DNA of 38,650 bases from an archaeon (GTDB lineage: Archaea; Thermoproteota; Nitrososphaeria; Conexivisphaerales; DTJL01): assembly GCA_021811935.1 (NCBI GenBank), contig JAKAPW010000006.1:1-38650 (forward strand), in the 5' to 3' direction. This document shows, one piece after another, positions 4,555-5,544 of the stretch. A program made the translations under genes and the position numbers. The stretch's first letter is position 1. Each line of letters starts with the position of its first letter. Under the pieces are notes generated by a model, which saw only the letters and a list, made by a program, of their open reading frames with translations, had not been told where the DNA came from and searched no databases.

Positions 4555-4566
4555 AGTATTATAAAA
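4555..4566 (+). promoter_or_regulatory. Putative TATA box upstream of the ThyX-like pair
   Basis: agtattataaaa about 30 nt upstream of the ATG at 4590. Confidence 0.5.
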
Positions 4567-4589: not shown

Positions 4590-5021
4590 ATGAAGGCAAG
4601 CATAATCTGGCACACTCCGGAGCCGGAGAAGACGATAGCCACTGCGATGAGGCGTTGCTACAGCACCAAGCCGCTCCAGGAGATACAGGCAGAGCTGGAC
4701 GAAAAAGGGGAAGATTACTGGAGGCACCTGATAGGCCTGGCCCTGCGCGACAAATCCTTCGACGTGATAGAGCACTTCTGCCTTGAGGTGTTGCTGGAGG
4801 GGTTGAAAGAGGGCGAAGTCGGGAACATCACCATGGTCTATCCTTTCGCCCACTTCCTTTCGCTGGGTGGAGACTCCTGGCTCCTTTCGGTCAACGCCAG
4901 GACGTTGCTGGAGATGTGGCATTCTTCAGAACACAAACACCTTGTCCATACCATAACGGACGCCATGAAGGAGAAGGGAATAGGCGCCATATATTCGTCC
5001 GTCGCGTTCGGGGGGTCCTGA
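4590..5021 (+). CDS. ThyX-like protein lacking the RHR signature (partner subunit?)
   Basis: TPEPEKTIATAMRRCYS, SFDVIEHFCLEVLLEG and LLSVNARTLLEMW resemble ThyX N-terminal and NaR segments; no RHRX7S. Confidence 0.65.
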   Translation: MKASIIWHTPEPEKTIATAMRRCYSTKPLQEIQAELDEKGEDYWRHLIGLALRDKSFDVIEHFCLEVLLEGLKEGEVGNITMVYPFAHFLSLGGDSWLLSVNARTLLEMWHSSEHKHLVHTITDAMKEKGIGAIYSSVAFGGS

Positions 5022-5022
5022 A

Positions 5023-5544
5023 TTGCAGCTGGTGCTCCTGTGGCACACCGACCACGAAGCCATAAAGAAGGTGCTGGAATCGAAGGGGGTCCACCCCCAC
5101 AAGGAAGCCCTCCTGCGCCACATGGTATACATGTTCAGCATAGAGGACATCAGCAGGGTCACGACGCACCAGCTGATAAGGCACCGCGTGGCTTCCTATG
5201 ACCAAGAGTCGCAACGCTTCTCATCGGCTTCCAGGGAGTCCTTCGTCATCCCCCCATCGATAGCGGAGAGGCCGGAGGCGGTCAAACTCTACGATGAGGC
5301 GCTCCAGGTAGCCGCCAAGACCTTCGAAGCCATGATTGCGCTCGGCGTGCCCAAGGAAGACGCGCGCTACGTGATGCCCCACGCCATAAAGACCAAGCTC
5401 GTCATGACGCTCTCCGGATGGAGCCTCAAACACATAGCCGAACTCAGGACGGCCCCCGAAGCGCAGTGGGAGATCAGGGAGCTCGTGTCGAAGATGTACC
5501 AGATGGCGGCCGACGCCACCCCCGACCTGCTGCAGCAGGACTAG
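5023..5544 (+). CDS. thyX: Flavin-dependent thymidylate synthase ThyX family (signature-bearing subunit)
   Basis: ISRVTTHQLIRHRVASYDQESQRF signature; TTG start directly after the upstream stop. Confidence 0.85.
   Translation: MQLVLLWHTDHEAIKKVLESKGVHPHKEALLRHMVYMFSIEDISRVTTHQLIRHRVASYDQESQRFSSASRESFVIPPSIAERPEAVKLYDEALQVAAKTFEAMIALGVPKEDARYVMPHAIKTKLVMTLSGWSLKHIAELRTAPEAQWEIRELVSKMYQMAADATPDLLQQD

Follow-up and report, generated by a model that had tools for sequence, protein, structure and literature searches.

Thymidylate synthase ThyX carries out an essential step in DNA precursor synthesis and has been described as a homotetramer in which three identical subunits contribute to each active site. 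What, then, should be made of two neighboring archaeal genes that each resemble only a part of this enzyme? The pair lies within a stretch of archaeal DNA of 38,650 nucleotides (the window), and it had originally been proposed from the letters alone that the two genes encode a ThyX that is divided between two chains.

A pair of adjacent ThyX-like genes

Just as the original prediction had described two adjacent ThyX-like frames with a stop at 5021 and a TTG start at 5023, ORF1 (positions 4590 to 5021, forward strand, 143 amino acids; hereafter alpha) is followed after a single base by ORF2 (5023 to 5544, forward strand, TTG start, 173 amino acids; hereafter beta). A TATA-box-like TATAAAA that can be read from the sequence at 4560 to 4566 of the forward strand is a probable promoter of a near-leaderless mRNA. 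Its location 27 nt upstream of the ORF1 ATG at 4590 supports this start over that of a longer frame from 4425, and A+T-rich boxes lie at similar distance 5' of ORF1 in most relatives from the window's own family f1 and from family f11, which we take to be the Gagatemarchaeaceae (group I.1c) because the genome of SubAcS15-57, which the study of that group lists, appears to belong to it, with contig number and ThyX coordinates in agreement. The junction (5010 to 5025, forward strand) comprises a G-rich stretch, the ORF1 stop codon TGA at 5019 to 5021, one base and the ORF2 TTG at 5023. Judging from overlaps and short gaps between the two frames, ORF2 is probably made as a separate protein whose translation would be coupled to that of ORF1.

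ORF1 matches the N-terminal third of the Pfam Thy1 profile and ORF2 covers the remainder. For ORF1, residues 5 to 71 align to profile positions 2 to 65 (E 1.7e-5) at 25.1 bits, only just above the cut-off of 24.8 bits, and its score of 17.0 bits with TIGR02170 stays below the cut-off of 87.9 bits for this NCBIfam thyX equivalog, which ORF2 surpasses with 120.6 bits. The Pfam match of ORF2 extends over residues 26 to 167 (profile positions 49 to 190, E 8e-46).

The motifs that had been read from the two frames are borne out by their sequences, both what each contains and what each lacks, with one refinement concerning the N-terminus of ORF2 (see below). ORF1 carries MRRCYS (codons 20 to 25; 4647 to 4664, forward strand), which corresponds to the folate-loop region of ThyX and is invariant among the alpha proteins of f1 and f11, as well as IEH and LSVNART, in which N102-A-R104 (4893 to 4901, forward strand) is the equivalent of N163-A-R165 of Thermotoga maritima ThyX, which contacts FAD from the subunit in role B (see below) according to PMC6514825; ORF1 is devoid of RHR, S88/R90, the active-site loop, R147 and R174. 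ORF2 carries the ThyX signature RHRVASYDQESQR (codons 53 to 65; 5179 to 5217, forward strand) and has RHR, the active-site loop (S88, R90), R147, R174, Q180 and W181, with the folate-loop block absent and S-G-W in place of N-A-R, that is, with both N163 and R165 lost. Neither frame alone therefore holds the full set of motifs, whereas the pair taken together meets the features of ThyX, with RHRX7S and the dUMP-side residues R147, R174 and Q180 in ORF2 and the folate-loop region and the equivalents of N163/R165 in ORF1.

Predicted fold of ORF1

A phmmer search of ORF1 against PDB sequences gave no match, and its kinship to these proteins is hence visible only by comparison of folds. AlphaFold2 modelled ORF1 from 33 alpha sequences with a pLDDT of 96 and a pTM of 0.88, and the best 50 matches listed by Foldseek for this model in the PDB were all ThyX (best E 1.9e-4; TM 0.54 to 0.70 on query length among the matches listed). 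We thus predict from the model that ORF1 has a ThyX fold. The original prediction would have fallen if ORF1 had borne no structural similarity to ThyX, and it withstood this challenge.

Complementary deletions and sorting of conserved residues

Compared to T. maritima ThyX, whose reference sequence agrees with the portions of PDB chains compared, ORF1 can be aligned over residues 1 to 80, 90 to 96, 154 to 174 and 182 to 210 and ORF2 over residues 1 to 16, 46 to 108 and 116 to 205. In this numbering, the two chains have opposite internal deletions of around residues 97 to 153 in alpha and 17 to 45 in beta, and the first beta strand is present at the start of both. The claim that ORF2 has no N-terminal segment thus needs to be narrowed, because this first strand is retained and only the block of helix 1 and folate loop is absent from the alignment. 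Since both chains share the first strand and have opposite deletions, alpha and beta are better understood as duplicates of ThyX than as halves of one gene that was cut. Complementary parts are indeed found in the two frames as the idea of a split enzyme had implied, but not through a simple split: fission of one gene is ruled out by the shared first strand and by the fact that each chain covers parts of both ends, leaving duplication of ThyX with internal losses that complement each other.

The partition of conserved ThyX motifs that had been suggested for this one pair holds across 39 sets of alpha and beta, 35 encoded as two genes and 4 as natural fusions, drawn from six families of archaea, and fits the subunit roles known from solved structures. 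E58 is found in all 39 alpha sequences and in 2/39 beta sequences, N163 in 35 and 8, respectively, and R165 in all 39 and in 22. H59 is always present in alpha and is the exception to the drift in beta of residues that alpha has kept. Conversely, Q75, R78, H79, R80, S88, R90, R147, R174, Q180 and W181 are present in 39 of 39 beta sequences, and single-chain ThyX proteins have all residues counted in this sorting (22/22). In f11, f65 and f79, R165 persists in numerous beta proteins, for which the loss of the corresponding role (role B, see below) is inferred from the absence of N163 and of the N-terminal block. H53 on the folate side is missing from alpha of f1 and f11 and also from the single-chain ThyX of families f13 and f19. 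Pairwise dN/dS is 0.04 to 0.20 for alpha and 0.03 to 0.12 for beta, with the caveat of saturation in one pair and dS above 1 in several. These low values indicate strong purifying selection on the two genes and show that both are maintained.

Occurrence in relatives

A scan of GTDB contigs with the ORF1 alignment yielded 19 loci, most of them titled Thaumarchaeota or Nitrososphaeria besides one Bathyarchaeota, one "bacterium" and two plain "archaeon". Both ORF1 and ORF2 are present at 18 of them, and the remaining one (L067) has a single ThyX. In a sample of 400 genomes of the class, full ORF1 matches were found in 4 genomes of f1 and 17 of f11. A search across the phylum additionally showed that G693, a genome of family f79, has an ORF1-like gene as a separate frame. 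ThyX matches occur in 16 of the 18 genomes of its genus and are of the split type; in its class, f81 and f65 also have pairs, and ThyX is a single full-length protein in many other families. We refer to these archaea as Bathyarchaeia-type based on the MAG BA_9, which is titled Bathyarchaeota and belongs to the G693 genus. Similar pairs are widespread among archaea of the Nitrososphaeria and of the Bathyarchaeia type.

The junction between the two genes differs among relatives, ranging from overlaps of 11 or 4 nt to gaps of 1 to 8 nt, with locus L061 as an exception at 1571 nt. Recurrence of the pair in many relatives with such different junctions indicates that it is not a product of chance or of sequencing error, and the variation, including the distance at L061, suggests that two proteins are made separately. 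Around 1.5 kb with other ORFs lie between ORF1 and ORF2 at that locus (L061:4442-6000), one of which encodes, by inspection, a putative membrane-anchored transcriptional regulator; the same genome (G073/G338) has an additional, adjacent ORF1/ORF2 pair on contig L100.

A few occurrences call for caution. The locus titled Bathyarchaeota (L054) belongs to a genome with a Gagatemarchaeaceae-like pair and another, different pair, for which reason the former is probably a binning contaminant. Short contigs L010 (G003:C19) and G750:C33 (L103) bear a second, foreign-looking ThyX pair, a probable case of binning contamination of these MAGs. As a separate observation, the beta gene of four genomes of the f79 genus (L099:4829-6628; L154:2125-4098; G744; G748) has an intein-like insert of ca. 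350 to 400 amino acids inside the ThyX signature, directly N-terminal to the serine that corresponds to S88 (SFSQQ|C...GN|SQRY).

Subunit roles and the proposed heteromer

Every active site of solved ThyX structures lies between three subunits (PMC3498832, PMC11940539), of which A provides RHR and the R174 equivalent, B the equivalents of T55 and R165, and C contributes S88, R90 and the lid tyrosine (PMC6514825). In published ThyX structures, FAD is held by the Ser/Thr of role B on the side of helix 3 together with R165, and the active-site loop comes from C. The equation of Ser71, Arg190 and Arg199 of the Mycobacterium tuberculosis enzyme with T55, R165 and R174 of T. maritima is our own reading of the motifs. 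Set against these roles, the sorting of residues places alpha in the role of the third subunit and beta in the other two; by sequence, alpha retains role B only and beta retains roles A and C.

We consider it very probable that ORF1 and ORF2 are two subunits of one obligate heteromeric ThyX, with the qualification that assembly, FAD binding and activity are inferred and that there are no biochemical data. An ancestral gene for a homotetrameric ThyX would have been duplicated in tandem, and the copies would then have lost opposite parts. In a tetramer with 222 symmetry, a site takes subunit i as A, its partner over one axis as B and its partner over another as C; with two beta related through the A-C axis and two alpha opposite across the A-B axis, exactly two complete sites would form. 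Most simply, the assembly may thus be alpha2-beta2 with two sites, in which the residues lost from each chain would no longer be needed, though this is a geometric inference and not a computed model. Neither subunit by itself would be expected to bind FAD properly or to make dTMP. That both parts are naturally fused in family f2 is in line with this interpretation. An artificial ORF1-ORF2 single chain that was made for modelling only (pLDDT 83, pTM 0.63, active-site loop disordered) was uninformative and supports nothing firm about the interface.

Alternative explanations

The range of motifs in beta leaves some room for the idea that ORF2 alone forms an active, minimal homotetrameric ThyX with ORF1 as a regulatory or stabilising pseudo-subunit, given that ORF2 retains the signature along with every residue on the dUMP side and exceeds the equivalog threshold. 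We regard this as unlikely, since ORF2 is without the block of folate loop and helix 1 and here also without N163 and R165, precisely the elements that are conserved in ORF1, and the parts missing from ORF2 are retained by every single-chain ThyX that we examined. A frameshift, either programmed or caused by an error of sequencing or assembly at GGGGGG near 5010 to 5015, might instead conceal one fused ThyX: reading 5' from 5023, the frame of ORF2 stays open into ORF1, the two would be joined by a +1 shift, and family f2 has a natural fusion. We give this hardly any credence, because the two ORFs of relatives are in differing relative frames with junctions of -11 to +8 nt and no common slippery site, the ORFs of L061 are far apart with others between them, and in most relatives ORF2 opens with a start codon and a first strand of its own. 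Differences among the junctions, together with the distance between the two genes at L061, largely refute this possibility, and we reject it.

It is also conceivable that a duplicated gene is in decay, with ORF1 and ORF2 as its remnants, and that thymidylate comes from salvage or an undetected synthase. The own genome of the pair is only 85% complete, and within this limit the search for another thyA or thyX that had been suggested revealed no ThyX match beyond the pair and no ThyA (PF00303). No ThyA match was found in any of the own-family or split-pair Nitrososphaeria genomes searched. Among these were two overlapping sets, 12 genomes of f11 and 18 other MAGs of Nitrososphaeria type with a split pair, in which ThyX matches occur only in such pairs; in two of these MAGs, an extra pair or an additional beta match is present. 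Three Bathyarchaeia-type genomes of f81 with a split pair (G902, G907, G908) show weak partial matches to the ThyA family (PF00303), which could be counted in favor of decay. Against it stand the dN/dS of 0.03 to 0.20 in both genes, the invariant catalytic residues of beta, and the f11 relative G114, whose closed and 100%-complete genome has neither ThyA nor any ThyX besides the split pair, and we deem decay highly improbable. Separately, we note that several relatives (G005, G012, G015, G017 and others) have no match to ThyX or ThyA; most of these genomes are incomplete, but G046 among them is listed as 99% complete. An obligate heteromer of alpha and beta remains our preferred interpretation.

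Evolutionary origins

In the alpha tree and the beta tree, both of which include single-chain ThyX, alpha and beta of f1 and f11 group with the single ThyX of f13/f19 (support 100/99 and 95/99), beta of f79 joins the single ThyX of f17 (93/93) and beta of f2 branches with the single ThyX of f5/f16, with beta of f81/f65 apart from these. A single origin of all split-pair beta was rejected (AU p 3.7e-6), as was one origin of beta from f79, f2, f81 and f65 (AU p 7.6e-4). Alpha of these four families forms one clade joined by long branches, and a single origin of alpha is not rejected at 0.05 (p 0.064), so it stays possible that one alpha gene was passed to several lineages of ThyX. By rejecting one origin of beta, the trees support that two-gene ThyX would have arisen at least twice, and its exact number of origins is not fixed. 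We lean toward a broader proposal in which homotetrameric ThyX of archaea became an obligate heteromer encoded by two genes on at least two and possibly three or four independent occasions, via duplication and loss of opposite roles, with exactly two complete sites per alpha2-beta2.

Relation to known ThyX enzymes

The pair shares the fold, the RHR-containing signature and the residues contacting dUMP and FAD with homotetrameric ThyX (PF02511, TIGR02170; T. maritima TM0449, M. tuberculosis, Helicobacter pylori), the three-subunit active site of which is the basis for its partition. Unlike this enzyme of four sites and identical subunits, it has two genes whose products each lack one block and complementary residues and is predicted to form an alpha2-beta2 heteromer with two sites, and a homomer of either chain should lack a complete site. 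Its nearest relatives in the trees are the single-chain ThyX of f13/f19 Nitrososphaeria (L156, L157, L158, L171-L173), to which beta of the window is 42% to 47% and alpha 33% to 34% identical. In contrast to the pair, these have one gene of ca. 205 codons with all motifs and likely represent the state before duplication.

The fusions of 383 to 421 amino acids (L013, L016, L019, L020) come from f2, a family in the same taxonomic order as the window. Their first part is of alpha type, with the internal deletion also seen in alpha, and their second part is of beta type, yet they are single polypeptides. They are probably neither a direct ancestor nor descendant of the window pair, because their beta part branches with the single-chain ThyX of f5/f16. 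Long tandem ThyX of ca. 440 to 550 amino acids from the same class (L021-L031; f6, f7, f8) have two ThyX-like domains with motifs that are, by inspection, divided between them, but they differ from the pair in being one gene, in that both domains are near full length and in how the motifs are divided; in L022, domain 1 has Q-S-M-R and N-A-R and domain 2 has R-Q-R and D-G-W. Transition from homomer to heteromer after gene duplication is a general phenomenon of paralogs (PMC7480870, PMC6711710), and the pair differs from such cases in that its division follows the subunit roles at the active site, comes with internal deletions that complement each other and has recurred in distinct lineages.

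No description of a split, heteromeric, two-gene or tandem ThyX was found in the open-access literature, though a description elsewhere cannot be excluded, and ThyX goes unmentioned in the main text of the paper on Gagatemarchaeaceae genomes. Annotation by the signature alone calls ORF2 a ThyX and misses its partner ORF1. If real, a two-gene ThyX would be a ready-made system for separation of function in an enzyme of unsettled mechanism, particularly regarding which subunit serves folate, FAD and NADPH, and its repeated origins, if true, would cleanly exemplify how a homomeric enzyme becomes an obligate heteromer through complementary loss.
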